A stretch of DNA of 42,753 nucleotides, taken from NCBI GenBank assembly GCA_016177915.1, contig JACOUI010000132.1, forward strand, positions 1 through 42,753, written 5' to 3'. Position 1 is the first letter of the stretch. Each line of letters starts with the position of its first letter. Positions 21,055-42,706 of the stretch are shown here, piece by piece. Under the pieces are notes generated by a model, which was not told the DNA's origin, made no database searches, and saw only the letters and a list, made by a program, of their open reading frames with translations. The DNA comes from Planctomycetia bacterium (GTDB taxonomy: Bacteria > Planctomycetota > Planctomycetia > Pirellulales > S012-138). A program made the translations under genes and the position numbers.

Positions 21055-22839
21055 GTGAGTTTTGCGGAAGTCCAATCCCCGCCGCCTGCCGAACCTGCAT
21101 TGCGGGGTCTCGCGCCCAGCCACGATGTCTCAGTCTCAGTTCCCGACCACGGCGACGAAGTCTGCCGCTGCCATCGCGTCACAAAATCGCGCGTCCTTGA
21201 GTGCATCCGCGACGGCTGCGGAACGCTCAAGTCGATCGGCGCACGCTGCCAGGCCGGCACGGGCTGCGGAAGCTGCCAGGGGTTGCTGGGCGATCTGATC
21301 ACCGAGTGCCGTCGCGGCGACGCCGCCGAGCGAAAACAAAACAAGGTCGAGCTTACCAAGCAGGAAAAAGACGGCCTGGACATCCTGCCCGATGTTTATC
21401 GTTACGCCGAGACCGGCGACTGGACGCAGATCTCCGAGGACGACGCGCAGCGCATGAAGTGGTACGGCCTGTTCCTTCGCAAGCCCACGCCGGGCCATTT
21501 CATGCTCCGGATCCGCGCCACCTGCGGCCAGATGACCGCCCGGCAGTGGCGCGTCATCGCGGACCTGTCGGACCGTCACGGGAAAGGATTCTGCGACCTG
21601 ACGACCCGGCAACAGGTCCAGATGCGCTGGTTCACGATCGGCCACGTGCCGGAGATCCTGGAGCAGCTTGCCGAGGCGGGACTCGACACGTTTCAGACGG
21701 GAATGGACAACGTGCGCGGCGTCTGCGGTTGCCCCGTCGGCGGACTGACGCCCAGCGAACTCTTCGACGCCACGCCGGTCGCCCGGCAGTTCACCGAGAT
21801 GCTGGTGGGAAACAAGGAGTTTTCCAATCTTCCGCGCAAGTTCAACGTCACCATTAGCGGGTGCCTGGAAAACTGCTGCCACGCCGAGACGCAGGACCTG
21901 GCGCTCGTGCCCGCGGTGGCGGACATCGATGGAGAAACGCGCTGCGGCTTCAACGTCCTCGTCGGGGGCAAGCAGGGATCGGGCGGCTACCGGCCGGCCA
22001 CGGACTTGGACGTATTTGTCCTTCCAGAGGATGCGCCGGAAGTCTGCCAACAGATCGCGTTCATTTTCCGCGATCATGGTTCGCGAGAGACGCGGACCCG
22101 CGCGCGACTGGCCTTCCTCGTCGAAGACCGGGGCGCCGCCTGGCTGCGCCGCGAACTGGAGCGGCGCTGCGGCGCGCCCCTGCGCGCCGCCGGCGCCGAT
22201 CAGCGCAAGAAAACGCACAACGATCACGTCGGCATCTTTCGGCAGAAGCAACCGGGCCTGAACTACGTCGGGCTGCTCGTGCCGGTGGGTCGCATTTCCA
22301 CGGACCAGATGCGGGGCGCGGCCGACCTCGCCGAGCGGTATGGCGACGGCTCGATCCGCCTTACGACCGGCCAAAACGTCATCGTCGCCGGCGTACCCGA
22401 CTCCAAGATCGGCGGCCTCACCGAAGAGCCGCTGCTCAGAGAGCTGCGCTACGATCCCACGCCGATCATGCGCGGACTCGTGTCGTGCACGGGCAACGAC
22501 TATTGCCATTTGGCGCTCATCGAGACCAAGGGCTGGGCCATCGAAGTTGCAAGGCAGCTTGAACAGCGCCTGGGGGATGAAGCGGCGAAGGTCGCTCCTT
22601 TGACGATCCGTTGGTCGGGCTGTCCGGCGGGGTGCGGCCTGCACCAGGCGGCGACGATCGGCCTGCAGGGCTGCCGCATGCGCCAGGCCAACGGCCAGAT
22701 TGCCGACGCGGCGCACGTCTACGTGAACGGCGCGTCCGGCCCGGCCGCGCGCGTCGGGACAGAGCTTCTCAACGACGTCCCGTGTGACGCTCTGGCCGAT
22801 GCACTTCTCCCGCTCGTGAAGCACCTGCCGAGGAAATGA
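21055..22839 (+). CDS. nirA: Ferredoxin-type nitrite reductase with N-terminal BFD domain
   Basis: A 594-residue assimilatory nitrite reductase. It reduces nitrite to ammonium with six electrons at a siroheme coupled to a [4Fe-4S] cluster. The cluster/siroheme cysteines are Cys478 and Cys484 (SCTGNDYC) and Cys523 and Cys527 (GCPAGC), the C-x5-C...C-x3-C pattern. The two NIR_SIR half-domains are visible (RIRATCGQMTARQWRVIADL; TTRQQVQMRWFTI; VGLLVPVGRISTDQM). Residues 37-74 form an extra BFD-like [2Fe-2S] domain with C-x-C-x31-C-x2-C spacing, normally found inside NasB/NirB-type enzymes. GTG 21055 has AAGGA eight bases upstream. First gene of the nitrate operon; its stop overlaps the next ATG (ATGA). 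A sulfite reductase is less likely given the neighbours. Confidence 0.92.
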   Translation: MSFAEVQSPPPAEPALRGLAPSHDVSVSVPDHGDEVCRCHRVTKSRVLECIRDGCGTLKSIGARCQAGTGCGSCQGLLGDLITECRRGDAAERKQNKVELTKQEKDGLDILPDVYRYAETGDWTQISEDDAQRMKWYGLFLRKPTPGHFMLRIRATCGQMTARQWRVIADLSDRHGKGFCDLTTRQQVQMRWFTIGHVPEILEQLAEAGLDTFQTGMDNVRGVCGCPVGGLTPSELFDATPVARQFTEMLVGNKEFSNLPRKFNVTISGCLENCCHAETQDLALVPAVADIDGETRCGFNVLVGGKQGSGGYRPATDLDVFVLPEDAPEVCQQIAFIFRDHGSRETRTRARLAFLVEDRGAAWLRRELERRCGAPLRAAGADQRKKTHNDHVGIFRQKQPGLNYVGLLVPVGRISTDQMRGAADLAERYGDGSIRLTTGQNVIVAGVPDSKIGGLTEEPLLRELRYDPTPIMRGLVSCTGNDYCHLALIETKGWAIEVARQLEQRLGDEAAKVAPLTIRWSGCPAGCGLHQAATIGLQGCRMRQANGQIADAAHVYVNGASGPAARVGTELLNDVPCDALADALLPLVKHLPRK

Positions 22840-24560
22840 CGATGACCGCGACAGGCGCCTTGGCAGCGGAACCCCGGGCCGCAGGCGACGACACCGCCAT
22901 CGAGCCGGTGCTCGTCGAGCGGTCGCTGGCACAGCAGCAGACTCTTACCGCCGTCGAGCAGTTCGCCGCCCTTCACGACTCGCCGCTCCGGCCCGCAAAC
23001 GCCTCGCGCTACGCCGCACTGCTCCCCGCCCGCTCCCCCGCCGATGGCGAGCAGTACGCCTTCGAAGTCGATCTGGATCGCTGCTCCGGCTGCAAGTCGT
23101 GCGTGACGGCGTGCCACTCCCTCAATGGCCTGGCGCCGGGCGAGACGTGGCGCGACGTGGGGCTGTTGCACGGCGGGACCGATGAGCTGCCGGTTCTGCA
23201 GCACGTCACGGCGGCGTGCCATCATTGCCTGGAGCCGGCGTGCCTGTCCGCCTGCCCCGTGAAAGCCTACGAAAAAGACCCGCGGACCGGCATTGTCAAA
23301 CACCTCGACGACCAGTGCATCGGCTGCCAGTACTGCATCTTCGCCTGCCCCTATGACGTGCCCAAGTACAACCGCCAGCTCGGCATCGTCCGCAAGTGCG
23401 ACATGTGCAGCACGCGGCTGGCCGCCGGCGAGCCGCCCGCGTGCGTCCAGGCCTGCCCCACCGCCGCCATCCGCATCACCCTCGTGCGCCGGCAGGAGAT
23501 CATCGAAGGCTGCGAGACGGGCGTCTTTCTGCCCGGCGCTCCTGACTCGGGGCTGACCCTCCCCACGACGCACTACAAAACGCGCCGTGCCTTTCCGCGC
23601 AATCTCCTGCCCGCGGACTACCACTCGATCAAACCCGAACGCGCGCACTGGCCGCTCGTGCTGATGCTCGTCTTGACGCAGTTGGCGGTCGGCGCCTTCG
23701 CCGTTGGTTTTGTGCTGGATCGCTTCGCCGGCAACCCGCTCGCGGTGGACGCCGCGCGCGTGCACGCCGTCAGCTCGCTCGCCTTCGGCGCCCTGGCGCT
23801 GGCCGTCAGCGTCCTTCATCTCGGGCGGCCGCTGTATGCGTTTCGAGCCGTCTTGGGCCTGCGCACGTCCTGGCTCAGCCGAGAAATTCTGGCCTTTTCC
23901 CTGTTTGCACCGCTCGCTGCTGCCTACGCCGCGGCGCTGTGGCTGGCGCCGACGCAGACCGCTTCCGGGACAACGGTCCACGACGTTCTCGGCGCCACCG
24001 TGGTTGCCAGCGGACTGTGCGGCGTGATCTTCTCCATCAAAGTCTACCAGTGCACTGGACGCAGCTTCTGGAATGGCGTCTCCACGAGCCTCAAGTTTCT
24101 CCTTACGACGCTGCTCCTGGGCATCGCCACGGTGCTGCTTACATCGGCGGTCACTTCGGCCAGCTCGCCGCCGTCCCTTCCGCACGCACAGACCCCGCAC
24201 GATTTCATTTTGCTTTACGGCCTGATCGCGGCCTCGGCTGTGAAACTCCTTACGGAATTGGCCTTCTTCCTGCACCTTGGCGACCGGAGGAACAACCCCG
24301 CCAAGCGGTCCGCCCTCCTCATGGCCGGACCGCTCAGGAGCATCACCAGATCTCGATTCGCCTTGGGGGTCGTCGGCGGGCTTTGGGCCCCGGCGTACTT
24401 GCTCCTGTCCGGCCCGTCCGCGGCAGCCGGCGACGCCGGTTACCGGGTGGTCGCCGCCGCGGTCGCTTTCGTCGCGCTCGTGCTGGGCGAACTGCTGGAG
24501 CGCTACTTGTTCTTCGCGGCCGTGGTGCCGCCCAAAATGCCCGGGAGGTTTGCCGCGTGA
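22836..24560 (+). CDS. Fused DmsB-DmsC electron-transfer subunit
   Basis: A 574-residue fusion of an iron-sulfur subunit and a membrane anchor of the DMSO-reductase family. Residues about 75-215 hold sixteen cysteines in four ferredoxin-like groups ([11 protein letters not shown] from Cys83; [30 protein letters not shown]...CVQACP), enough for four [4Fe-4S] clusters. From about residue 270 there are eight membrane helices of DmsC type, with the signatures [17 protein letters not shown] and SWLSREIL, and [16 protein letters not shown] at the end. The likely role is quinol oxidation and electron delivery to the molybdoenzyme encoded next. No Tat leader is seen on either subunit, so the iron-sulfur domain should face the cytoplasm. 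Confidence 0.92.
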
Positions 24561-26785
24561 CGCACGAGACATCGCTTCCGGCCGGCTCGCTCATCGCTGG
24601 CCTGCGATCCACGTTCCACCAACCTCATGGACCGTTGACGCGCCAATTGCAGCTCGCGCCGGCCGGCTTTGGGCTGGGGCACGTGCCCGCGGACTCAAAG
24701 CCCGATGCCACCACGGCGATGGTCTGCGGCTATTGCTCGACCGGCTGCGCTTTGGAAATCCATCTTAAGGAGGGCCAGGCGGTCGGCTTGACGCCGGCCC
24801 AGAGCTACCCCGTCAACCGCGGGATGGCGTGCCCCAAGGGGTGGGAAGCGCTTGCCGTCTTGAATGCCCCGGATCGCGCCACCGCACCTCTGCTACGCAG
24901 CGAACGCGGAAAACTGCAGCCTGTGACGTGGGACACGGCGCTAAGCACCTTCGCCGCGCGCTTCAAGGATATCCAACAGAGGCATGGGCCGGAGTCTGTC
25001 GCTTGGCTTGGCACCGGGCAAATGCCGACGGAAGAGCTGGCCCTCTTGGGAGCCGTGGCCAAGTTCGGCATGGGCATCGTCCACGGAGACGGGAACACGC
25101 GGCAATGCATGGCCAGCGCCGTCGTCGCCTACAAGCAGTCCTTCGGCTTCGACGCTCCGCCGTATACGTATCAGGACCTGGAAGAGTCCGACGTGCTGGT
25201 CCTCGTCGGCGCGAACCTGTGCATCGCGCATCCGATCCTTTGGGACCGCGTGATGCGCAATCCTCACCGGCCGGCCGTCGTGGTCGTCGACCCGCGCCGC
25301 ACCGAGACCGCGATGTACGCGACGCAGCACGTCGCGCTTCGCCCCAAGACCGACCTGGAACTCTTCTACGGCGTCGCGCACATCCTCATCGACGGGGGCT
25401 GGATCGACCGCGACTACGTCGACGCGCACACCGCAGGCTTTGAGGAGTTCGCCGCGCATGTTCGGGAGTACGCGCCGGCGCGGGTCGCCGAAGTCACGGG
25501 AATTCCCTGCGAAGACATCTACCGCCTCGCGCGAACGATCCACGAAGGGCGACGCGTCTCGTTCTGGTGGACCATGGGCGTCAACCAGAGTTACCAGGGA
25601 GTTCGCACGGCGCAGAGCCTGATGAACCTGGCCCTCATGACCGGGAGCATCGGGCGGCCCGGCACAGGCGCCAATTCGATCACCGGCCAGTGCAACGCGA
25701 TGGGTTCGCGGCTGTTCAGCAACACGACCAACCTTCTGGGCGGCCGCGACTTTGGAAATGCCACGCATCGCGACGAGGTGGCGCGCATCCTCGGCATCGA
25801 TCCAGCGCGAATCCCAAAGCGCGATAGCTGGTCCTACCCTGAAATCCTCGAAGGCATCCTCGCCGGGAAGATCCGTGGCCTGTGGGTCGTGGGCACCAAT
25901 CCCGCTCACTCGTGGATCAATCAAAACCAGCTCCGCGACATTTTCAGCCGCCTGGAGTTCCTCGTCGTTCAGGACATGTACGACACGACGGAAACGGCGC
26001 AACTGGCCGACCTGGTCCTTCCCGCGGCCGGTTGGGGCGAAAAGGACGGCTCCTTCATCAACTCCGAGCGACGCATTGGTCTCATCAAGAAAGTCGCCCG
26101 GGCGCCGGGCCAGGCCCTGGCCGACTTCGCCATCTTCCGCCTGATTGCCGACTACTGGGGCTGCGGCGAAATGTTGCAGGCCTGGAATTCACCCGAGGCG
26201 TTCTTTCAGACCCTCAAGCAGCTCTCGCAAGGTCAGCCCTGCGATTTCAGCGGCATCCGCGACTATCGCATGATCGACGAGGAGGGAGGCATTCAATGGC
26301 CGTTTCCGGTCGACAGACCGCCGCAAGGGACCCACCGGCGATTGTTCGAGGACGGCCGGTTCTATCACAGCGACGGCCGTGCTCGCTTCCTCTTTGAATC
26401 TCCGCGGTCGATGCCCGAGCCGCCCGGCGAGAAGTTTCCCTTCCTGCTCCTGACGGGCCGGGGGAGCGCCGCCCAGTGGCATACGCAAACGCGCACCGGG
26501 AAGTCCGCCGTCCTGCGGAAGCTGTATCCGGCCGGCGCCTACGTCGAGGTGCATCCGGCCGATGCGCGCGAGCTGGGCATCCAGCCGCAGGAGCGGATTC
26601 TCGTCGAGTCGCAGCGCGGCAGCGTGCGGGCCAGGGCGTTCGTCACGCCGCTCGTGCAACGCGGGACGGTATTCATGCCCATGCACTATGAAACCGTCAA
26701 CCAGCTCACGCACGCCTCGTTCGACCGTTATTCGAAACAGCCCTCGTACAAGGCCTGCGCGGTCCGCCTCAGCCGCGAAGCCTGA
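24557..26785 (+). CDS. nasA: NasA-type assimilatory nitrate reductase, catalytic subunit
   Basis: A 742-residue molybdopterin oxidoreductase. Start GTG 24557 overlaps the previous TGA (GTGA) and follows GGGAGG. A [4Fe-4S] site is formed by CGYCSTGC (Cys57, Cys60, Cys64) and Cys92 in GMACPKG. The segment [13 protein letters not shown] offers Cys184 as molybdenum ligand, as in NasA/NapA nitrate reductases. Further family marks: [44 protein letters not shown], and the C-terminal dinucleotide-binding domain with [19 protein letters not shown] and [11 protein letters not shown]. No Tat signal, so cytoplasmic. Nitrate rather than formate is favoured by Cys (not Sec) and by the NirA and NarK neighbours. 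Confidence 0.88.
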
Positions 26786-26835
26786 CGCCGCCGGCGGCGC
26801 ACTTTTGGCGAGATCGTTCCGACTGACTCGTTTGG

Positions 26836-28089
26836 ATGACGACACCCATGCACCTTCGAGCTTTCCTGCGGTCCGGTCATACGCCGACGCTCGCCTGCGC
26901 GTTCTGGTACTTCGACGTGAGCTTCATGGTCTGGATGCTCATCGGTGCGCTGGCCAACTCCATCGCTCCGGAGTTTAGCCTGTCCGACGCTCAGAAAGGA
27001 CTGCTCGTTGCAGTTCCCGTCCTGGGTGGCGCGCTCCTGCGGCTGCCGCTGGGCTACCTTGCCGACCGTTTCGGTCCGCGGCGCACGGCCCTCGCGGGCC
27101 TACTGCTGACACTCGTTCCGCTGCTCCTGGGATGGCTCTGGGCAGCCAGCTTCGCCCGGCTGCTGTGCGTCGGCTTCCTGCTGGGCGTCGCGGGCGCCAG
27201 TTTTGCCGTGGCGCTGCCCATGGCCAGCCGGTGGTATCCGCCGCGGCATCAGGGTCTGGCCTTGGGAATCGCCGGAGCGGGCAACAGCGGCACGGCCCTG
27301 GCTACGTTTTTCGGACCACGGGTGGCCGAGGTCCTGGGGTGGCGCGCCGTCTTTGGACTTGCAGCCCTGCTCGTCGCGGCCTCCCTGCTCATCGTGATGG
27401 TCTTTGCCAAGGAAAGCCCGCAGCAACCGCCGCCCAAGCGCCTCCGCGAGTATTTCTCCGTGCTCCGCCAGCGCGACGCCTGGTGGTTTTGTTTTTTCTA
27501 CTCCGTCACCTTTGGCGGGTTTGTCGGGCTCGCGAGTTTTGTAAGCATCTTCTTCAAGGACCAGTACGACGTGAGCCGGGTGGCGGCCGGAACGCTGGCC
27601 ACAGCCTGCGTGTTTGCCGGGTCCCTGCTGCGGCCGGTGGGCGGCTACCTCGCCGACCGTCTCGGAGGGACGCGAGTCCTGGCGATCGTGTTTGTTGCGG
27701 CGGCCGTGGTCACACTCTCGTTGGCGGCCCTGCCTGTGCTTTCGGTCGCGACCGCGGCTCTGATGGCCATCATGGGGCTCCTGGGCATCGGCAACGGCGC
27801 CGTGTTCCAGCTTGTGCCTCAACGGTTCGCTGCGCAGATTGGCGTCGTGACGGGGATTGTCGGAGCGGCCGGCGGCCTGGGCGGATTTGTGCTGCCCAGC
27901 GTCTTGTCCGGCTTGAAAGAAACCTCCGGCAGCTTCTCCGGCGGGTTTGTTTTTGCAGGGCTGATCGCAATGGGTGCGTCCGTGGCGCTATTGCGGCTCG
28001 ACCGTGCCTGGAGAGCCGCCCTGGCTCAAGCAGAGGCTCTTTCGCCTTCCGCCGTCCCGGCGCCAAGTCCGTCGTCCGCCGACATTTGA
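26836..28089 (+). CDS. narK: NarK-type nitrate/nitrite transporter (MFS)
   Basis: A 417-residue major facilitator with 12 predicted helices. Family hallmarks: FWYFDVSFMVWMLIGALA in helix 1, LPLGYLADRFGPRR in the loop after helix 2, the first nitrate signature GIAGAGNSGTALATFF in helix 5, and the second, GIGNGAVFQLVPQRF, in helix 11. ATG 26836 lies 50 bp after the nasA stop, in the same operon. It should import nitrate, possibly in exchange for nitrite or with protons. A second in-frame ATG lies four codons later. Confidence 0.9.
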   Translation: MTTPMHLRAFLRSGHTPTLACAFWYFDVSFMVWMLIGALANSIAPEFSLSDAQKGLLVAVPVLGGALLRLPLGYLADRFGPRRTALAGLLLTLVPLLLGWLWAASFARLLCVGFLLGVAGASFAVALPMASRWYPPRHQGLALGIAGAGNSGTALATFFGPRVAEVLGWRAVFGLAALLVAASLLIVMVFAKESPQQPPPKRLREYFSVLRQRDAWWFCFFYSVTFGGFVGLASFVSIFFKDQYDVSRVAAGTLATACVFAGSLLRPVGGYLADRLGGTRVLAIVFVAAAVVTLSLAALPVLSVATAALMAIMGLLGIGNGAVFQLVPQRFAAQIGVVTGIVGAAGGLGGFVLPSVLSGLKETSGSFSGGFVFAGLIAMGASVALLRLDRAWRAALAQAEALSPSAVPAPSPSSADI

Positions 28090-28301
28090 TCGGCCCTGTC
28101 AAAATCGTTCCGCACCGCACGTCGTCCGGCAGTCACACGTTCTTGCGAATCCAGTTCGCATTTCCCTGCCGTCGGCCAATCTGGCCGCGCCGCAGGTTGA
28201 AAATTCTCGCGAACGTGTCATTCTGGCAGGGAATGCCGCCGTGCAACCGCCATCCACGACGGCGGCCGCTCCGCTCGACACGAAAGACGAGACGCCTCAA
28301 C

Positions 28302-31300
28302 ATGAGAATCACCGCCCACCTCGCCGCCGTCGCCTGCCTTGGTCTTTTCACGGTCCCCGCGGCGCGGGCCGCCGATCTGTGGGCAGCCTACGAGGGGAAA
28401 GACGGGCCCGGCGCGGGCAAGCACGTCGTGCTCGTCAGCGGCGACGAGGAGTACCGCTCGGAAGAGGCCCTGCCGCAGCTTGGCAAAATCCTGGCCGTAC
28501 ACCACGGCTTCCGCTGCACCGTGCTCTTTGCCATCGACCCCCAAACGGGCGAGATCGACCCCAACAACAAACAGAACATCCCCGGCCTGGAGGCGCTGGA
28601 AAAGGCCGACCTCATGATTATCGCCACGCGCTTCCGCGACCTGCCCGACGCGCAGATGCAGTACATCGACGCCTATCTCAAGTCGGGCCGGCCGGTGATC
28701 GGAATGCGGACCGCGACGCACGCCTTCGCCACCTCCAACCCCGCCTGGGCCCACTACGCCAACGACTACAACGGCGAGAAGAAGGAATGGAAGGAGGGTT
28801 TCGGGCGGCTCGTGATCGGCGAAAAGTGGATCAGCCACCACGGCGGGCACAAGACGGAATCGACGCGGGGCCTCGTCGCCCGCGGCGCGAAGGACCACCC
28901 GATCGCCCGCGGCATCAAGGAAGGCGACATCTGGGGCGACACCGACGTGTACGGCGTGCGGCTGCCGCTGCCGGGCGACAGCCGGCCGATCGTGATGGGA
29001 CAGGTGCTCTCGGGCATGAAGCGCGACGACCCGCCCGTGGCCGGCAAGAAAAACGACCCGATGATGCCGGTGGCCTGGACCAAAACGTATCAGGTCCCCG
29101 GCGGCAAGAAGGGGCGCGTGTTCGCCACGACGATGGGCGCCGCCACGGACCTTGCGCCCGAAGGGACGCGGCGGATGCTGGTGAACGCCGCTTACTGGTG
29201 CGTGGGGCTGGAAGACAAGATTCCCCAGGGCGGGACGAAGGTCGATCTGGTCGGCGAGTACAAGCCCAGCGCGTATGGCTTTGGCGGGTTCAAGAAGGGC
29301 GTCAAGCCGGCGGACCATGCGCTGAAGGCGGAAGGCAGCGCCGCGGCGACGCCGGGATCGGACAGTATCCGTCTGCCGCGCGGGACCGCCGTCGCCGCCG
29401 TCGTCGCGCAGGCCCGCGCCGCTGCGAACAATCGCCTTGCGCTCAACCGCGGCGACCACATCAGCATCATCGGCAACACGCTGGGCGAGCTGATGCAGCA
29501 CGACGGGCACCTGGAGACGCTGATCCACAGCCGCTTCCCGCAGCACGAGCTGTCGTTCCGAAATCTCGCCTTCTCCGGCGACGAATTGACGACGCGCTTC
29601 CGCTCCGAAGGTTTCGGCACGCCGGAAGAATGGCTCACCAAAACGCAATCCGACGTGATCTTCGCGTGCTTCGGCTTCAACGAGTCGTTCGCCGGCGAGC
29701 CGGGCCTGGCGAAATTCAAGGCCGACTTGGAAAACTTCATCAAGCAGACGCTGGCGCAAAAGTACAACGGCAAGAGCGCCCCGCGACTCGTGCTCTTTTC
29801 GCCCATCGCGCATGAGGACCTGGGCACGCCCAACCTGCCCGACGGCAAGGAGAACAACGCCCGCATTGCGCTCTACACAAAAGCCATGGCGGAGGTCGCC
29901 GCGGCCCAGGGCGTTTTGTTTGTCGATTTGTTCGGCCCGTCGCAGCGGCTGTATCTCCAATCGCAAAAGCCACTGACCGTCAACGGCATCCACCTCAACG
30001 ACGAGGGCAATCGCCTCTTGGGCGAGGCGATCGACACAGTCGTTTTCGGCGGTCGCTCGGCGCCTGTTGAGTGGAAGTCGCTGGAAAAGCTGCGGCAGGC
30101 CGTGCTCGACAAAAACTTCTACTGGTATCACCGCTACCGCACGACCGACGGCTATTCGTCGTACGGCGGCCGGTCCTACTTGAAGTTCGTCGACGACCAG
30201 ACCAACCGCGAAGTGATCATGCGCGAGCTGGAAGTGCTCGACGTGATGACGGCCAACCGCGACAAGCGCGTCTGGGCCGTCGCGCAGGGAAAGGACGTCG
30301 AGATCGACGACGGCAACACGCCGCCCTTCATTCCCGTCAAGACGAACAAGCCCGGCGAGGGTCCCGGCGGGGCGCACCTGTTTCTCGGCGGCGAGGAGGA
30401 AATCACGCGGATGACCGTACCCAAGGGGATGAAGGTCAACCTTTATGCCTCGGAGGAGACGTTCCCCGAGTTGGTCAATCCCGTGCAGATGGCGTGGGAC
30501 ACGAAGGGCCGCCTCTTCGTCGGCGCGTGGCAGAGCTATCCGCACTGGAAGCCCAAGGACGAGATGAACGACAAGCTCTTGATCCTGGAAGACACGGACG
30601 GCGACGGCAAGGCCGACAAGTGCCGGACCTTCGCCGACCATCTGCACAACCCGACGGGCTTTGAATTCTGGGGCGGCGGCGTGCTCGTCGCGATGGCCCC
30701 GGACATCTTGTTCCTCAAGGACACGAACGGCGACGACGTGGCCGACGTGCGCATCCGCGTCCTGCACGGCATGGACACGGCCGACACACACCACACTTCC
30801 AACAGCTTTGTCCTCGATCCGGGCGGGGCGCTTTATTTTCAGGAAGGGGTCTTCCATCGCACGCAGGTGGAAACGCCCTACGGCCTCGTGCGAAACACCG
30901 ACGCCTGCGTCTGGCGCTTCGAGCCGCGGACCTGGAAGTTCGAGCGCTACGTGGCCTTCGGCTTCGCCAACCCGCACGGCCACGCCTTCGACCGCTGGGG
31001 GCAGGACATCGTCCACGACGGCACCGGGGCGCAGCCCTATCACGCGGCGTTGTTCTCGGGGTACATTCCGTTCCCCGACAAGCATCCCGCCCCGCCGCAG
31101 GTCTATCAGCAGCCGACGCGGCCCTGTCCCGCCACGGAGGTCCTCTCCAGCCGGCACTTCCCGGAGGACATGCAGGACACGCTGCTCGTGGGCAACGTGA
31201 TCGGCTTCCAGGGCATCTTGCAGTACCGGATTGTGGACGACGGCGCGAGCTTCAATGGCATTCGCATGGAGCCGCTCGTTTCTTCCAGCGATCCGAATTT

Positions 31301-34300
31301 CCGCCCGGCCGACATCGAGGTCGGGCCGGACGGCGCGATCTACTTCACCGACTGGCACAATCCGATCATCGGCCACATGCAGCACAACCTGCGCGACCCC
31401 AGCCGCGACCGAACGCACGGCCGGGTGTATCGCATCACCTACGAGGGCCGGCCGCTCCTCAAGCCGGTGAAAATCGCCGGCGAGCCGATCGCGCGCCTCC
31501 TGGACCTTTTGAAGGAGCCGGAGAACCGCGTGCGTTATCGGGCGCGGATCGAGTTGAGCGGCCGCAAGCCTCAGGACGTCCTGGCGGCCGTCGAGCGCTG
31601 GCTCGTGGCGCTGCCCAAGGACGACCCGAACTACGCGCATAGCGTGCTCGAAGCATTGTGGATCTACCAGCAGCACAACGTCGTCAACGAGCCGCTCCTG
31701 CGGAGCGTGCTGCGATCGCCGGACTTCCACGCCCGCGCCGCGGCCACGCGCGTCCTTTGCTATTGGCGGGACCGCGTGCCCGAGGCGCTGGACCTTTTGC
31801 GCCTTCAGGCGGCCGACGAGCACCCGCGCGTGCGGCTGGAGGCCGTGCGGGCGGCGAGCTTCCTGGAGGTCCCCGAAGCGGTCGAAATTCCGCTCATCGC
31901 GGCCGAGCTGCCCAGCGACAAGTATCTCGACTACACGCGCGGCGAGACGATGCGGACGCTGGAGCCGATCTGGCGGAAGGCGCTGGCCGAGGGGAAGGAG
32001 ATCGCGATTGCTTCCGAGGCCGGGGCGCGGTTCCTGCTGCGGAATATTCCCGTCGAGCAGCTTCTCAAGCGGCCGCGGACGCCGGTCGTCTGCCGCGAGC
32101 TGCTGCTGCGGCCGGGCGTGCAGGACACCCTCCGCAACGAGGCCCTCGCCACGCTCGCCCGTTCCGAGGGCAAGAGCGAGCTGGATACGCTCTTGGAGAT
32201 CATCGGCGGAATCGACCAGCAAGAAGCCGCGGAAGAGTCCGTCGTGCTCGACTTGGTTCACCTCCTGGCCGGCCGCAAGGGATCGCAGCTTGTCGCCGCC
32301 CGCGGGCAGATCGAGCGGCTGGCCACGTCGGCCTGGCAGCCGGCCCTGCGGCAGATCGCCTTCGCAACGCTCGTCGAGGTCGATCGCTCGGCCGACAAGG
32401 CCTGGGCGCTTTCCACGCGCTCCGTCGCCTCGCTGGGCGATCTTTTGAACGCCGTGGCGTGGATCTCCGATCCCAGCTTGCGGGCGAGCCTCTATCCCAA
32501 GATCGAGCCGCTCCTCGATGAGCTGCCGCCGAACCTGGCGTCCGGATCGGGCAGCAAGCCGGCAGCCGTCGGCCGCTATGTGCGCATCGAGCTGCCGCGG
32601 CAGGGCACGCTCACGCTGGCCGAGGTCGAGGTCTCTAGCGACGGCCGCAACGTCGCCCGCAGCGGCAAGGCCACGCAAAAGAACACCGCCCACGGCGGCG
32701 AGGCGTCGCGGGCCATCGACGGCAACACGAGCGGCATGTTTGGCAACGGCGGCCAAACGCACTCCCGCGAAAGCACCGACAATCCCTGGTGGGAGGTGGA
32801 CCTGGGCGAATCGCTGCCCATCGAGTCGATCGTCGTCTTCAATCGCACGGACGGCACGCTCGGCAAGCGGCTCGACGGCTTCACGCTGACGGTGCTCGAC
32901 GGCAGCCGCGGCGAAGTCTTCCGCCAGGAGAAAATCCCAGCGCCCGACGTCAAGCTGCAAATCGACCTGGCGGCGGCCAGCCCGCAGTCGCGCATCCGCC
33001 GCGCGGCGATGAACGCGATGACATTTGTGCGGGGCGAGGAGGCCAAGACCTTTGCGACACTGGCCGAGTTCGTGCAAAAGGACGTGGACCGGCTGGCGGC
33101 CGTCCGCGCGATGCAGCGCATCCCGAAAACCTACTGGCCCGCCGACCAGGCGCCGGCGCTCTTGAAAGTGCTCACGGAGCACGTCCGCAAGACGCCCGTG
33201 CCGGACCGCACCTCGCAGGCCGTGCTCGACGTGTTGGAGCTGGCCGACGGCCTGGCGTCGCTCCTGCCGATCGACGACGCCCGCCGCGTCCGCGTCGAGC
33301 TGCGCGAATTGGGCGTGCGCGTCGTGCGGATCGGCACGCTGCCGGAGCGGATGTCGTACGACCAGGACGTGATCGCCCTTGCTGCCGGCAAGCCCGTCGA
33401 GTTCGTCTTCGAGAACTCCGACTTCATGCCGCACAATTTTGCGATCGTGCAGCCGGGCGCCCTCGAGGAAGTCGGCCAGCTTGGCGAGGCCACGGCCCAG
33501 CAGCCGGACGCCGCCGCACGGCATTACATTCCACCGTCGAACAAGATCATGCTCGCCAGCCGGCTGCTTTTGGCGCGGCAGTCGCAAAAGCTGAGCTTCA
33601 CGGCTCCCGCGCAGCCGGGGGTTTATCCCTACGTCTGCACCTATCCCGGCCACTGGCGGCGGATGTACGGGGCGCTCTACGTCGTCGAAGACCTCGACGA
33701 TTACTTGTCGAACCCGGAGGCGTATCTGGCCGGCCATCCGCTGCCGATCCGCGACGACCTGTTGAAGGACCGCCGGCCGGTGACGCAATGGAAGGTCGAG
33801 GACCTGGCCGCACCGGTCGAGTCGCTCCGCGAGGGCCGGTCGTTCGGCAACGGCAAGCAGATGTTCACGGTCGCAAGCTGCGTCTCCTGCCACAAGCTGG
33901 GCGGCGTCGGCCGCGAGTTCGGTCCCGACCTGACCAAGCTCAACCCCCCCCGCAAGCCGGCCGAATTCCTCAAGGAACTGATCGAGCCCTCGTTCAAGAT
34001 CGAGGAAAAGTACCAGTCGTACACGTTCCTCATGGACGACGGCGTGGTCTACACGGGCATGGTGCTGGAGGAGACGCCGCAGGTCGTGAAGATCATCGAG
34101 AACCCGCTGGCCAAGGCCGACCCGCGCGTGCTCAAGAAATCCGAGATCGCCCAGCGCGAAAAGGCCGCGGCCTCGCTGATGCCCAAGGGACTTTTGGACA
34201 AGCTGACGCGGGACGAGATTCTGGACCTGATGTCCTACGTGATTGCCCAGGGGGACGAAAAGCACGCGCTCTTCCAGGGCGGGCACGAGCACGGGCATGA

Positions 34301-34310
34301 GCACAAGTAG
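28302..34310 (+). CDS. Giant secreted multi-domain PVC-type heme- and copper-binding protein
   Basis: A 2002-residue exported protein; the leader is residues 1-21 (RITAHLAAVACLGLFTVPAARA). Domains in order: ThuA-like (about 38-298; GKHVVLVSGDEEYRSEE); SGNH/GDSL-hydrolase-like (about 384-580; IIGNTLGELMQHDGH, FACFGFNESFAG, VNGIHLNDEGN); a membrane-bound-dehydrogenase type propeller (about 704-1040; MTVPKGMKVNLYASEE, NPTGFEFWGGGVLVA, ADIEVGPDGAIYFTDWH); HEAT-like repeats (about 1050-1400); a discoidin/F5-8C-like module (about 1424-1555); a second helical stretch; a cupredoxin (about 1670-1797) with likely copper ligands His1711, Cys1779, His1784 and Met1788; and a cytochrome c domain with Cys1860-x-x-Cys1863-His1864. 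The tail ends in a His-rich GGHEHGHEHK. The ATG at 28302 is set by the leader. It probably oxidises a sugar-like substrate outside the cell, passing electrons to copper and heme; substrate unknown. Confidence 0.9.
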   Translation: MRITAHLAAVACLGLFTVPAARAADLWAAYEGKDGPGAGKHVVLVSGDEEYRSEEALPQLGKILAVHHGFRCTVLFAIDPQTGEIDPNNKQNIPGLEALEKADLMIIATRFRDLPDAQMQYIDAYLKSGRPVIGMRTATHAFATSNPAWAHYANDYNGEKKEWKEGFGRLVIGEKWISHHGGHKTESTRGLVARGAKDHPIARGIKEGDIWGDTDVYGVRLPLPGDSRPIVMGQVLSGMKRDDPPVAGKKNDPMMPVAWTKTYQVPGGKKGRVFATTMGAATDLAPEGTRRMLVNAAYWCVGLEDKIPQGGTKVDLVGEYKPSAYGFGGFKKGVKPADHALKAEGSAAATPGSDSIRLPRGTAVAAVVAQARAAANNRLALNRGDHISIIGNTLGELMQHDGHLETLIHSRFPQHELSFRNLAFSGDELTTRFRSEGFGTPEEWLTKTQSDVIFACFGFNESFAGEPGLAKFKADLENFIKQTLAQKYNGKSAPRLVLFSPIAHEDLGTPNLPDGKENNARIALYTKAMAEVAAAQGVLFVDLFGPSQRLYLQSQKPLTVNGIHLNDEGNRLLGEAIDTVVFGGRSAPVEWKSLEKLRQAVLDKNFYWYHRYRTTDGYSSYGGRSYLKFVDDQTNREVIMRELEVLDVMTANRDKRVWAVAQGKDVEIDDGNTPPFIPVKTNKPGEGPGGAHLFLGGEEEITRMTVPKGMKVNLYASEETFPELVNPVQMAWDTKGRLFVGAWQSYPHWKPKDEMNDKLLILEDTDGDGKADKCRTFADHLHNPTGFEFWGGGVLVAMAPDILFLKDTNGDDVADVRIRVLHGMDTADTHHTSNSFVLDPGGALYFQEGVFHRTQVETPYGLVRNTDACVWRFEPRTWKFERYVAFGFANPHGHAFDRWGQDIVHDGTGAQPYHAALFSGYIPFPDKHPAPPQVYQQPTRPCPATEVLSSRHFPEDMQDTLLVGNVIGFQGILQYRIVDDGASFNGIRMEPLVSSSDPNFRPADIEVGPDGAIYFTDWHNPIIGHMQHNLRDPSRDRTHGRVYRITYEGRPLLKPVKIAGEPIARLLDLLKEPENRVRYRARIELSGRKPQDVLAAVERWLVALPKDDPNYAHSVLEALWIYQQHNVVNEPLLRSVLRSPDFHARAAATRVLCYWRDRVPEALDLLRLQAADEHPRVRLEAVRAASFLEVPEAVEIPLIAAELPSDKYLDYTRGETMRTLEPIWRKALAEGKEIAIASEAGARFLLRNIPVEQLLKRPRTPVVCRELLLRPGVQDTLRNEALATLARSEGKSELDTLLEIIGGIDQQEAAEESVVLDLVHLLAGRKGSQLVAARGQIERLATSAWQPALRQIAFATLVEVDRSADKAWALSTRSVASLGDLLNAVAWISDPSLRASLYPKIEPLLDELPPNLASGSGSKPAAVGRYVRIELPRQGTLTLAEVEVSSDGRNVARSGKATQKNTAHGGEASRAIDGNTSGMFGNGGQTHSRESTDNPWWEVDLGESLPIESIVVFNRTDGTLGKRLDGFTLTVLDGSRGEVFRQEKIPAPDVKLQIDLAAASPQSRIRRAAMNAMTFVRGEEAKTFATLAEFVQKDVDRLAAVRAMQRIPKTYWPADQAPALLKVLTEHVRKTPVPDRTSQAVLDVLELADGLASLLPIDDARRVRVELRELGVRVVRIGTLPERMSYDQDVIALAAGKPVEFVFENSDFMPHNFAIVQPGALEEVGQLGEATAQQPDAAARHYIPPSNKIMLASRLLLARQSQKLSFTAPAQPGVYPYVCTYPGHWRRMYGALYVVEDLDDYLSNPEAYLAGHPLPIRDDLLKDRRPVTQWKVEDLAAPVESLREGRSFGNGKQMFTVASCVSCHKLGGVGREFGPDLTKLNPPRKPAEFLKELIEPSFKIEEKYQSYTFLMDDGVVYTGMVLEETPQVVKIIENPLAKADPRVLKKSEIAQREKAAASLMPKGLLDKLTRDEILDLMSYVIAQGDEKHALFQGGHEHGHEHK

Positions 34311-34608
34311 CGATGCCCTTCTTTCGCAAACGTAATCGATTGCTACGCATTTCATTTCAGCGCTCGTCGCCGACACCGCGTCGCGCGCCCTGATAACTAT
34401 CGGCAATCCCGCAGACAGTGCCGCGGCGACGACGATTCTCGCTCTTGGTGAGACTCAGCCGGCGGAAGGTATGAACGGGTCAATAGTTGCGCCCCGGACC
34501 TATTCAACGTGGCGGAATCCTGGTAGCATAATGAACTAATGCACACTGACGGCTTGCAACCGTGGCATTCGGCCCAGTCAGAATGACCCGTTTCGCAGGA
34601 TCGAAGCA
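34311..34608. other. Intergenic region
   Basis: About 300 bp without a gene. GC falls in places, and TAGCATAAT near 34525 could be a -10 element for the downstream gene, but no good -35 partner was found. No repeat or hairpin of note. Confidence 0.4.
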
Positions 34609-38957: not shown

Positions 38958-40151
38958 TCACAGCTTCCACCGCACAACCTGCACGTACGTCTGCCCATCG
39001 GCTGCGCGGTAGGAATAGCACGAGATAAGCCCGCCGTCGTGAAGTTGGACCGTGTTGCCAAAGCCGCCGCCCTGCTGCGCGCCCCAGGGCGTCTTGCCTT
39101 CGATCACGATCTGGTCGTGCTCGAAGTCCCAGGTCGCCCCGTCGTCGTAGCTCACCATCGCCCGCAGGCCGATCGGGTAGACCAGGCTCCGCTGCGTGTA
39201 CGTCATGAGCAGCCGGCCGTCGGACAGCCGCAAGACGCGCGGATACATCCGCCCATACTCGCCGAAGTCGCGGACGTCGCCCCAGGTCCGCCCCCCGTCG
39301 CTCGATTCGCAGTACATCGTGCGGTCGATGGAGTCGTCGCCCGCGGGCACGGGGCGACGGTCGTTCATGGGGTGCATGGGGCTGGGCGGGCCGCAACGAA
39401 TCCAGTGCAGGAGCTTGCCGCTCTTGGTCAGATAGGTGAAGTCCTCAGTGAAAAAGCAATCGAAATTGTCGTAGTCGCGGCCCTGGTAGCGGCCGAGCGT
39501 GACGGCCGGCCCGCCCTCCCACGTTCGCCCTTTGTCCTTGGAGGTCCAAAGATACGCCACGCGGCCGGGCCGCTCGTTGAGCCCCACGCCCAAGAGCAGC
39601 GTTCCGTCGGTCATCTCGACGACGTTTCGCGAGCACATGGCGTACGACTTCTCGCTGAACTCCTTGCCGAGAATCCGCGTGCGCTGCCACGTGCGGCCGC
39701 GGTCGGTCGAGCGGTGGATGTAGCTGTGCGTGACGCCGTTCTTGTTGTTGGCGTCCTGGGCCAGGAGGTGGCAGTTGGCAAAGAGCGTGCCGTCGGAGAT
39801 CGAGGTCAGCCACTGCTCGCGGCCGATGAGGTCGTTCACGCGCTCGCGCTCCGTCCAAGCCCGCCCGCCGTCCGTCGAGCGCCATAGACCGGTCCACTCG
39901 CGCAGTTTCCCCTCGTGCTGCTCCTGAAAGAGCGCAACCATGACGAGTTCGCCGTCGGGCAGCATCGCCAGGCTTGGCTTGTAGCCCGGCCCGATGGCGA
40001 TCCGCTCGGCGGCGATCTGCCACGTGCCGAGGCGCTTGGGGTTGTTGACGCGGATGGGTAGCGCGGTATCCGGATCGCCGGCCGACACGCCTGGTTGGGG
40101 CAGTGCGAGCGCGGTGCAACCCACGGTGAAAAGCACCACAAACGATTTCAT
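38958..40151 (-). CDS. Secreted sialidase-fold (BNR/Asp-box) glycoside hydrolase-like protein
   Basis: A 397-residue exported six-bladed propeller of the sialidase superfamily. The leader is residues 1-24 (VVLFTVGCTALALPQPGVSA). At least five Asp-boxes are present: STDGGRAWT, STDRGRTWQ, SKDKGRTWE, SSDGGRTWG and SYDDGATWD. The region KPSLAMLPDGELVM stands where true sialidases have the Arg-Ile-Pro motif, which is missing, so activity on sialic acid is doubtful; many planctomycete copies are of this kind. It is the second gene of an operon with the Kelch protein, 34 bp after it. Confidence 0.88.
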   Translation of the reverse strand: MKSFVVLFTVGCTALALPQPGVSAGDPDTALPIRVNNPKRLGTWQIAAERIAIGPGYKPSLAMLPDGELVMVALFQEQHEGKLREWTGLWRSTDGGRAWTERERVNDLIGREQWLTSISDGTLFANCHLLAQDANNKNGVTHSYIHRSTDRGRTWQRTRILGKEFSEKSYAMCSRNVVEMTDGTLLLGVGLNERPGRVAYLWTSKDKGRTWEGGPAVTLGRYQGRDYDNFDCFFTEDFTYLTKSGKLLHWIRCGPPSPMHPMNDRRPVPAGDDSIDRTMYCESSDGGRTWGDVRDFGEYGRMYPRVLRLSDGRLLMTYTQRSLVYPIGLRAMVSYDDGATWDFEHDQIVIEGKTPWGAQQGGGFGNTVQLHDGGLISCYSYRAADGQTYVQVVRWKL

Positions 40152-40185
40152 GCCAATTCTCCGACAGCGGTCCTTCCTTCTCCTG

Positions 40186-41193
40186 TCACTTGTCCTGCAA
40201 CGACTCCTCCGGCGCCTCCAGCGACCAGACCTCGCTCGACAGCGGCTGCGCGTGACCGCCGGCGATCCAGATCTTGTCCTGGAAGACGTAGGCCGAGTGC
40301 TCGTGCCGCTCCTTCCACATCGCGCTCGACTCGAGGCGCTCCCAGCTCTTGCCGTCGCGCGAGTGCCAGACGTCGCCCCAGTTTTTCGAGGGGTTGTTCG
40401 ACCAGCCGCCCAGCACCCAAATCCGGCGGCGATAAACGACCGACGAAAACCAGATCCGCTCGTGCCAGGGGGCCTTCTCGATCACCTGCTCCCAGTGGAC
40501 GCCGTCGGACGAGCACCACACATCGCTTCGCGCCTCGTACTTGGGCACGTAACTCCCGCCGCCGAGCACAAAGATCTTTCCGTCGTGAACCACGGCCGCG
40601 TGATACGCCCGTGGCGACCAGGGGGCGCTTTCGGTTTCGAGCCTCCACTCCTTCCCGTCGGCCGATGACCAGACGTCGTTCTTCAGGCTCCGCTCGTCGC
40701 CGAAGTAGTAATTCTCCGTCCCGCCCAGAATCCACATCCGGTCCTGGAAGGCGACCGCCCCGGCCGCGATGCGCGGGCTCCAGCCGGCGCTTTTTGCCGC
40801 CAGCTCCCAGTTCGCGCCGTCGTCCGACGACCAGACTTCGCTCGTGGCGCCGTGCCCGGCGAGCCGGCCGTTGGTCCAGCCGCCCATAATCCACATCCGG
40901 TCCTTGAACGCGAGCGTCATCGGCAGGTCGCTGTATTTCCAGGGGGCGTCTTTCGCGACCAGCTCCCAGGTCTTGCCGTCGGCGGAGGACCACACGTCGC
41001 GCGGCGGCGGCGAAAACGAATCGAACCAGCCGCCCATGATCCAGAGCTTGTCTTTGAAGACCACTTCGCCAGCCGAGTCGCGCGGCTGCCAGGGGGCCTT
41101 GTCGGTCACTTTCACCCAGCGGGGGGCCTTCTCGTCGGCGGACGCGAGAAAGGGCGCGAGCAAAAGCGCGGCGACGATCAGGGGTCGTTTCAT
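40186..41193 (-). CDS. Secreted Kelch-repeat beta-propeller
   Basis: A 335-residue exported protein. ATG 41193 starts a clear leader (RPLIVAALLLAPFLASA); a longer frame from 41376 adds non-leader sequence. Six Kelch-like units follow, each ending in a Gly-Gly strand: LWIMGGWFDSF, MWIMGGWTNGR, MWILGGTENYY, IFVLGGGSYVP, IWVLGGWSNNP and IWIAGGHAQPL, alternating with VWSSADGK/VWSSDDGA turns like Asp-boxes. This gives a six-bladed propeller, most similar in layout to the sialidase downstream. Role likely in binding or hydrolysis of a glycan; no catalytic residues assigned. Confidence 0.88.
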   Translation of the reverse strand: MKRPLIVAALLLAPFLASADEKAPRWVKVTDKAPWQPRDSAGEVVFKDKLWIMGGWFDSFSPPPRDVWSSADGKTWELVAKDAPWKYSDLPMTLAFKDRMWIMGGWTNGRLAGHGATSEVWSSDDGANWELAAKSAGWSPRIAAGAVAFQDRMWILGGTENYYFGDERSLKNDVWSSADGKEWRLETESAPWSPRAYHAAVVHDGKIFVLGGGSYVPKYEARSDVWCSSDGVHWEQVIEKAPWHERIWFSSVVYRRRIWVLGGWSNNPSKNWGDVWHSRDGKSWERLESSAMWKERHEHSAYVFQDKIWIAGGHAQPLSSEVWSLEAPEESLQDK

Positions 41194-41434
41194 GCGGAGA
41201 GTCCGTGCGCGTGGGTTGTTGTGGCAATCGGGGCTCTGGATACGGTGGAGTAGCCAGACCCAAACTGTGAATCGCGCGCCTGCGGCTCGCCTGCATTCTC
41301 GACGAGAATTTCCTTGAAGTCTATCTGCCGACTCGGTAGATTCGCGCTTACGGGCGCAGGCTGCAAGAGGCATCATTTCACGCTTTCGCGCGCGTGCGAC
41401 GGATTGCTCCCCCTTCTCGCTGGGGAGAAAGACT

Positions 41435-42706
41435 ATGCGTAGCCTCGTAGTCGATTGCTGGGAGAGCGTTTGCCGGTTCGTACGCTCGCTCTTCGAGCCG
41501 GAGCCGGAACGGCCGCGGGCTGAGCGGCTCAGGAAGCGGCTGTGTTTTGAACGGCTGGAAGACCGGAACCTGCTGGCGGGCGACTTTTATATCAGCGACG
41601 CGACCGCCCTGGAGGCCCCGGGAGCGCTAATGACGTTCACCGTCACCCGTGATGGGGTGAACAACCCTGCCGGCACGGTCGATTTCGCCAGCGCAGACGG
41701 CTCAGCCCAGGCCGGCATCGACTACACTGCCGTCAACGGCACGCTCTCGTTCGATGCGGGCGAGTTGCAGAAGTTCATCCAGGTGCCGATCCTGGACGAC
41801 GCTGTTTGGGAGCCGGCCGAATCGTTCTTCGTGAACCTGTCCAACCCGTCCAATGGAGCGATCATCGACGGCCAAGGCGAGGGCACGATCGACGACGGGC
41901 CGCCGGGACCACCCCCGCCGAGCGGGACGCCCGAGATCGAAGTGCTGGATCAGTTTGCGGCCATCGTGGAAGACGACATTGGATGGATTAATGTTGCATT
42001 TACGCACGTCGGCTCGCCTGTCGAGTACACGTTCACGATCACGAACATTGGGGACGGGACGCTTGAACTCGATCCGCAGTCGCTGTCGCTTCCCGAGGGA
42101 TTCAGCCTGATTGGCTCGTTCCCCGCGACGATCGCCCGCAGCGATTCCGCCCCGTTCGTGGTCGAACTTGATGCGACCGCGCCAGGCTTCTTCTCCGGCG
42201 AGGTCGTGTTTCTCAACAACGACTTGGACGAGAATCCGTTCAATTTCGCGCTGGAAGGGGAGGTCTGGAACCTCCGTCCTGTGGCGCTCGATGACGTTTA
42301 CAGCACGCTCCAGGACACGCCGCTCACGGTTTCAGCGCCAGGTGTTCTGGCAAACGACGTGGATCCGGATGCGCACCCCCTCACCGCGACGCTCGTTCAA
42401 GGCCCAGCGCACGGCACACAGTTCAGCCTCAATTCTGATGGGTCATTCTCCTACGAGCCGGAATCCGGCTGGACCGGCGTCGACAGTTTTACCTACACGG
42501 TCAACGATGGTTTTGAGTCGAGCGAAGACGCGGCCACGGTGACCATTGGCGTCCTGAGTTCGTTCGGACCCGAGATTGAAGTGCGTTACGACAACGGCAT
42601 TTCAGTGCCGGATGGCACGGGCCTCGTCGATTTCGGGGAGACGAGTCTGGGCGAGGGTGTCTTAGCGCGGGGTTCAACTGGAATTTTTCTGCCCGATTTT
42701 GTGTAA
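41435..42706 (+). CDS. Planctomycete extracellular protein, apparently truncated
   Basis: A 423-residue surface-type protein. GGGGAGAAAG precedes ATG 41435. The start carries the planctomycete export-associated motif LCFERLEDRNLLAG (about residues 36-49). Domains: a Calx-beta motif (about 50-150; VNNPAGTVDFASADGSAQAG, AGIDYTAVNGTLSF), a Pro-rich hinge, a choice-of-anchor/ASH-type domain (about 165-280), a cadherin-like Ig domain (about 288-375; VLANDVDPDAHPLTATLVQG) and the first strands of another ASH domain (PEIEVRYDNGISVPDGTGLV). The frame stops in the middle of that last domain with an unrelated-looking tail (RGSTGIFLPDFV), so the gene is broken or the sequence is misjoined near the window end. 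Confidence 0.8.
   Translation: MRSLVVDCWESVCRFVRSLFEPEPERPRAERLRKRLCFERLEDRNLLAGDFYISDATALEAPGALMTFTVTRDGVNNPAGTVDFASADGSAQAGIDYTAVNGTLSFDAGELQKFIQVPILDDAVWEPAESFFVNLSNPSNGAIIDGQGEGTIDDGPPGPPPPSGTPEIEVLDQFAAIVEDDIGWINVAFTHVGSPVEYTFTITNIGDGTLELDPQSLSLPEGFSLIGSFPATIARSDSAPFVVELDATAPGFFSGEVVFLNNDLDENPFNFALEGEVWNLRPVALDDVYSTLQDTPLTVSAPGVLANDVDPDAHPLTATLVQGPAHGTQFSLNSDGSFSYEPESGWTGVDSFTYTVNDGFESSEDAATVTIGVLSSFGPEIEVRYDNGISVPDGTGLVDFGETSLGEGVLARGSTGIFLPDFV

Follow-up and report, generated by a model that had tools for sequence, protein, structure and literature searches.

A rare ThuA fusion to a common six-module propeller, lectin and electron-carrier protein in Planctomycetia

What kind of protein is encoded at positions 28302 to 34310 of a planctomycete contig, and is such a long frame one gene at all? 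The contig, JACOUI010000132.1 of GenBank assembly GCA_016177915.1 (Planctomycetia bacterium, order Pirellulales), was analysed as a single stretch of 42,753 nucleotides, referred to here as the window. A first-pass annotation, made from the letters alone, read the frame as one chain of ThuA, SGNH hydrolase, dehydrogenase propeller, discoidin, cupredoxin and cytochrome c domains, which would bring substrate binding, deacylation, oxidation and two electron carriers together on an exported polypeptide. We found that the gene and its fusion of seven modules are real. The chain SGNH-propeller-HEAT-lectin-cupredoxin-cytochrome c is itself common, the new part is the N-terminal ThuA, and the architecture is an elaboration, rare but repeated, of a protein common among planctomycetes.

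The frame runs on the + strand from an ATG at 28302 to a stop ending at 34310, with 2002 residues and zero internal stops. Family scans, a PDB search, comparison with relatives and fold predictions give seven modules in the order ThuA-like, SGNH, propeller, HEAT, lectin, cupredoxin and cytochrome c. The scans (Pfam, TIGRFAM) return TIGR02604/DUF7133, SGNH PF13472, HEAT, F5/8-type and TIGR02603, and a sequence search against the PDB brings in F-type lectins, cupredoxins of the auracyanin type and Kustd1711, an anammox diheme cytochrome.

28302..34310, +: whole gene, 2002 residues plus stop (open frame, codon structure)
28302..28373, +: predicted signal peptide, residues 1-24 (sequence; these first 24 residues have low confidence in the model; relatives carry one too)
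28374..29336, +: ThuA-like module, residues 25-345 (identity to stand-alone ThuA proteins, PF06283 via relatives, fold match)
29337..29432, +: fusion linker, residues 346-377 (length and sequence vary among fused proteins)
29433..30101, +: SGNH-fold module without the nucleophile, residues 378-600, with G391-N392-T393, G458, N460, N561 and H564 (PF13472, motif columns)
30102..30392, +: conserved helical segment between SGNH and propeller, residues 601-697 (33-80% identity in relatives, helices in the model)
30393..31445, +: TIGR02604/DUF7133 beta-propeller, sugar-dehydrogenase-like, residues 698-1048, with D828, H830, H831, N890, R1001, D1017, W1018 and H1025 near-invariant (family scan, model, fold, profile alignment)
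31488..31988, +: HEAT-repeat helices, residues 1063-1229 (PF13646; predicted local distance difference test, pLDDT, mostly above 95)
32571..32936, +: F-type (fucose-binding) lectin module as judged by sequence, residues 1424-1545, with H1487, R1515 and R1523 (phmmer, triad conservation)
33309..33689, +: cupredoxin, residues 1670-1796, with H1711, C1779, H1784 and M1788 (auracyanin A, phmmer 1.4e-12)
33849..34241, +: TIGR02603 monoheme cytochrome c, residues 1850-1980, with C1860, C1863, H1864 and axial M1960 (TIGR02603; homologue Kustd1711, 7ZS0)
34260..34307, +: His-rich tail, residues 1987-2002 (sequence; similar in most six-module relatives)

A signal peptide, MRITAHLAAVACLGLFTVPAARAA, opens the chain, and the 2002-residue protein is predicted to be exported. 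The same picture could arise if a stop had been missed, or a frame error made, between a ThuA gene and a six-module gene, as the window genome is a draft of 387 contigs and ThuA is mostly encoded as a separate gene. However, the same fused layout is shared by three further genomes from this order, in frames of 2009-2105 residues, and thus there is no frame error. Codon-position G+C is even along the whole gene, continuing across the ThuA-SGNH junction (third position 0.84-0.93, second 0.36-0.52), and at the junction the downstream half lacks the signal peptide that six-module relatives carry. The fused layout in other genomes and the codon structure through the junction rule out a frame or stop error, and we regard an artefact of this kind as extremely improbable. 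The frame, the codon structure and the fused relatives bear out the first-pass claim of one open frame joining all of the listed domains. An antisense open frame of 2062 residues (28218-34406, - strand) also spans the entire gene, and is a by-product of the GC-rich third positions.

How new is this architecture? Six of the seven modules commonly lie in one chain of ~1650-1900 residues. A whole-protein search aligns residues ~360-1995 end to end with single frames of 1640-1820 residues in many planctomycetes, among them the isolate Zavarzinella formosa (L052, a 1704-residue frame whose best segments are 47-67% identical). In a sample of 199 genomes across the class Planctomycetia, ~60 have the lectin-cupredoxin-cytochrome part in one frame at E <1e-140, counting rows that cover nearly the whole query. 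Because of this broad occurrence in one frame, the six-module chain must be considered a standard planctomycete protein; chains such as L052 have no ThuA and carry their own signal peptide ahead of SGNH. The domains had been thought to occur elsewhere only as separate proteins or smaller fusions, which does not hold for the six-module chain but is right for ThuA in that it is usually separate and its addition rare. Likewise, the concern that the architecture is already common applies to six of the seven modules, while the full seven-module form is rare. We found no literature on this architecture among the papers searched, and as far as we could find the six-module chain is likewise undescribed. 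Its nearest named kin are the PVC-type heme-binding CxxCH proteins (TIGR02604 plus TIGR02603; DUF7133), which have the same propeller and terminal cytochrome; the window protein passes both curated cut-offs (213.8 bits against 122.2 for TIGR02604, 91.5 against 68.15 for TIGR02603, with CxxCH and distal Met present), and adds to this plan ThuA, a degenerate SGNH, an F-type lectin and a cupredoxin. The window genome holds 42 stretches that match this protein, and most of the paralogues match only over propeller, HEAT and cytochrome.

ThuA and SGNH are joined in one frame, with all modules, in the window genome (G000), G008, G275 and G427, and the full-length relative G008/L021 is 67% identical over residues 11-2001. 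In G339 and G416 the fusion is interrupted by a contig end, and a shorter fused layout without lectin and cupredoxin is found in G015, G374, G424, G317, G252 and G574, giving about a dozen genomes and at least two core layouts in total. The locus lies in single contigs of >7 Mb in G317, G252 and G574, and therefore the fused state is no assembly effect there. Relatives also vary in their carriers, some being without cupredoxin, lectin or cytochrome. A split form is seen in L062-L065 and L068, in which SGNH-propeller-HEAT makes up ~930-1040 residues and the cupredoxin/cytochrome part is matched farther downstream on the same contig.

The added module has 60-70% identity to exported proteins of the ThuA family that stand alone, which are ~350 residues long and have their own signal peptides. 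Such stand-alone copies are widespread and strongly conserved in Planctomycetia (L075, L078, L079, L080 and most genomes of the class), often at that same level of identity to the window module. For the window protein itself PF06283 (gathering score 33.4) gives no row at E 0.1, and among the aligned relatives L028 passes at 38.9 bits and L021 falls just under the cut-off at 29.2. The predicted fold (pLDDT 72.6, moderate) finds its best PDB matches in the ThuA-like structures 4e5v and 4jqs (Foldseek, E 4e-6 and 4e-5). By its homology to passing proteins and its fold, the module belongs to the ThuA-like superfamily as a distant relative that is not a PF06283 member by score; it resembles the family in fold and through planctomycete relatives that reach the Pfam model, but differs in being sub-threshold, exported and fused.

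Did the fusion arise once? The core tree (a quick method) pairs the window protein with G008 as its sister (support 96), but fused proteins are dispersed over the tree, and at least two changes are required by the starred branches. The ThuA tree puts the window ThuA among stand-alone ThuAs (100/92) and that of G008 with the ThuAs of the shorter fused proteins (97/90). The ThuAs of these two sister proteins thus differ in ancestry, and the trees indicate either that the fusion arose more than once or that the ThuA part was replaced. A single origin is not supported, as the core and ThuA trees disagree. Linker length and sequence vary among the fused proteins. G275, G015 and G339 have a stand-alone copy besides the fused one, whereas no second close ThuA copy was found in G000, G008, G427 and G317; this absence is weaker in G000 and G427 (93% and 89% complete) because they are less complete than G008 and G317 (99% and 100%). 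A ThuA gene adjoins the core gene in G018 and G009 and, by coordinates, lies ~155 bp downstream of it in G172. A ThuA neighbouring or fused to the core is the pattern expected of functional partners, and this rare but repeated fusion suggests that ThuA and the six-module part act on the same sugar.

What might such a chain do? The most likely reading, to which we give slightly less than an even chance, is an exported enzyme that oxidises glycans, has electron carriers built in and is coupled to sugar processing of the ThuA type. The protein would be a secreted (periplasmic or surface) single-chain glycan oxidiser in which the lectin would bind a fucosylated or galactose-like glycan, and we infer the steps that follow this binding. 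The propeller would oxidise a sugar hydroxyl through His831 and a bound two-electron cofactor, and the electrons would pass one at a time through the protein's own heme domain and copper domain and on to an oxidase chain outside it. ThuA may then process the oxidised (keto) sugar or an adjacent glycosidic bond, SGNH would be a non-catalytic scaffold or binding domain, and the ThuA fusion would mainly tether a partner that is elsewhere a separate exported protein. ThuA and ThuB act in 3-keto-trehalose metabolism. In freshwater Verrucomicrobia, related planctomycete-type cytochrome c proteins carry carbohydrate-binding modules and a role in carbohydrate metabolism has been suggested (PMC5615132).

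The first question for this proposal is whether the propeller is an oxidoreductase. The model of residues 600-1240 (propeller and HEAT) has a pLDDT of 92.1, and the closest PDB folds of the propeller are a mix of pyrroloquinoline quinone (PQQ) glucose/pyranose dehydrogenases and lactonase/regucalcin-type enzymes. It has in common with the soluble PQQ glucose/aldose dehydrogenases (PF07995 GSDH, 1C9U) and PQQ pyranose dehydrogenase (6jt5) the propeller topology and the position of the catalytic His. In a profile-profile alignment (prob 96.9%) with planctomycete GSDH proteins from this order, H831 coincides with the catalytic HxGG motif and N890 with the RN motif. Going by 1C9U, we take H831 to be the equivalent of His144 in the soluble glucose dehydrogenase, and A889-N890 that of the PQQ-contacting Arg-Asn pair. 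His831 is kept in 60 of 61 rows and D828 in 61/61; given its near-invariant residues, the pocket is likely active. Oxidation by the propeller is plausible but unproven, and PQQ as its cofactor is uncertain.

Several points weigh against the oxidative proposal. In the PQQ pair the Asn is kept but the preceding Arg is replaced by Ala (A889), and therefore PQQ may not bind. Pfam GSDH (PF07995) gives no row for the window protein at E 0.1, its resemblance to the PQQ dehydrogenases being confined to profile-profile and fold similarity, and the propeller fold also holds hydrolases such as lactonases and DFPase. ThuA chemistry is drawn from trehalose catabolism alone, and the window ThuA branch is distant. 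No conserved operon naming a substrate was seen at the relatives' loci. The only tested protein found with the propeller-HEAT-cytochrome layout, Lac161_ORF7 (TIGR02604-HEAT-TIGR02603), speaks in part for the proposal, as once purified it released glucose from lactose with a Km of 1.8 mM; on the other side, it was produced in E. coli BL21(DE3), and hydrolysis and not oxidation was reported (PMC5342196). It shares propeller, HEAT and cytochrome with the window protein, whereas ThuA, SGNH, lectin and cupredoxin are not reported there and its function comes from one lactose assay. Its host BL21(DE3) is, we presume, lacZ+.

The propeller could accordingly be a redox-independent glycosidase or lactonase, with cupredoxin and cytochrome serving another purpose (sensing, structural or scavenging). 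The glucose freed by Lac161_ORF7, the replaced Arg of the PQQ pocket and the fold matches to xylonolactonase, DFPase, regucalcin and luciferin-regenerating enzyme all favour such an enzyme, but contamination by host LacZ is possible in the Lac161_ORF7 work and the GSDH-type catalytic His is near-invariant. The carriers count against it as well, since the copper and heme ligands are kept in every relative with those domains. We consider this alternative unlikely, though a serious one.

The type-1 copper ligands H1711, C1779, H1784 and M1788 are intact and kept in every relative that has the cupredoxin, and the heme ligands (CxxCH 1860-1864, axial Met1960) are conserved among relatives with a cytochrome domain; the annotation had the copper ligands and the CxxCH intact and correctly numbered. 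Kustd1711, whose cytochrome domain is homologous to that of the window, has high-potential hemes of ~+350 mV (PMC11791136). The His-rich tail (GHEHGHEHK) that the annotation described is also real, and most six-module relatives have one.

Substrate binding would depend on the lectin. The annotation had called this domain a discoidin and left the substrate unnamed; the F5/8-type scan match agrees with the former, but on sequence grounds the domain is an F-type (fucose-binding) lectin, pointing to fucosylated glycans. It matches FBP32 and Sm-hPAF (phmmer 1.5e-29 and 6e-23), and its triad is conserved in relatives (His1487 in 26/27, Arg1515 and Arg1523 each in 27/27). Of the published motif HX24RXDX4(R/K) (PMC5712786), the His, Arg, Asp and basic residue are present, with a longer spacing, HX27R. 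Thus it shares sequence and the His/Arg/Arg triad with FBP32, Sm-hPAF and eel AAA, but differs from them in this spacing, in sitting within a redox chain and in strand order. The module (32571-32936) looks circularly permuted, in that the strand GRYVRIEL..LTLAEVEV comes first and is C-terminal in single-domain F-lectins.

The SGNH module was credited with deacylation, and this part of the earlier picture did not survive. The fold is clear (PF13472 at 49.7 bits, cut-off 32.9) and Gly458, Asn460 and His564 are retained, but the GDS serine position is T393, with Ser in 0 of 51 clade rows (Thr 34, Ala 10, Gly 6, Asn 1), and the DxxH Asp position is N561 (Asn in 45/51, Asp in 5/51). With the catalytic Ser and Asp gone, deacylation is unsupported; an active SGNH esterase is ruled out by this motif loss, and we read the module as a probable non-catalytic fold. 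In a sister SGNH-propeller clade (L034-L036, L157, L158, L169), block I Ser is present in 7/10, and the DxxH Asp is Asn there too.

Such a loss invites the thought that the chain serves chiefly to conduct electrons or as a scaffold for adhesion, with propeller, SGNH and ThuA all degenerate binding domains. HEAT and lectin are binding modules in any case, and the electron-carrier content varies among relatives. Nevertheless, the propeller pocket residues are near-invariant, and of the residues that never vary among stand-alone ThuAs the window ThuA has changed just one (Leu172 to Ile); we find such a scaffold distinctly improbable. A more specific form of the glycan-oxidising proposal is an oxidation-assisted glycosidase on one chain: the lectin would hold the glycan, the propeller oxidise a ring hydroxyl and hand electrons on to the heme and copper of the chain, and the attached ThuA module cleave or rearrange the keto-sugar. 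In fusion-free species the widespread stand-alone ThuA of Planctomycetia would be the partner in this reaction as a protein of its own. We hold this version to be doubtful.

The surroundings of the gene are of a different kind. Upstream on the same strand are a nitrite/sulfite-reductase-type NIR_SIR protein (21055), a fused 4Fe-4S/DmsC protein (22836), a molybdopterin oxidoreductase within 23939-26785 and an MFS transporter (26836-28089), and 21055-28089 is likely a nitrate-assimilation cluster. No such cluster was seen again next to the relatives of the fused gene, and we therefore do not link it to the fused protein. Some relatives lie near a recurring ~500-residue gene, apparently DUF1501 (the window's cluster member overlaps its DUF1501 gene), and some also near a recurring ~1100-residue gene. 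Elsewhere in the window, a surface-type protein (Calx-beta, cadherin-like, with a weak planctomycete extracellular signal) adjoins a Kelch/BNR pair (41435-42706 and 38961-41376).

Planctomycetes hold dozens of propeller/heme proteins of no known role. The F-type lectin provides a first concrete substrate hint, namely fucosylated glycans, and the repeated natural fusion ties one large group of these proteins to a widespread and equally unexplained family of exported ThuA proteins. If the oxidation step is true, polysaccharides would be broken down by a redox route that is overlooked when only glycoside hydrolases are annotated.

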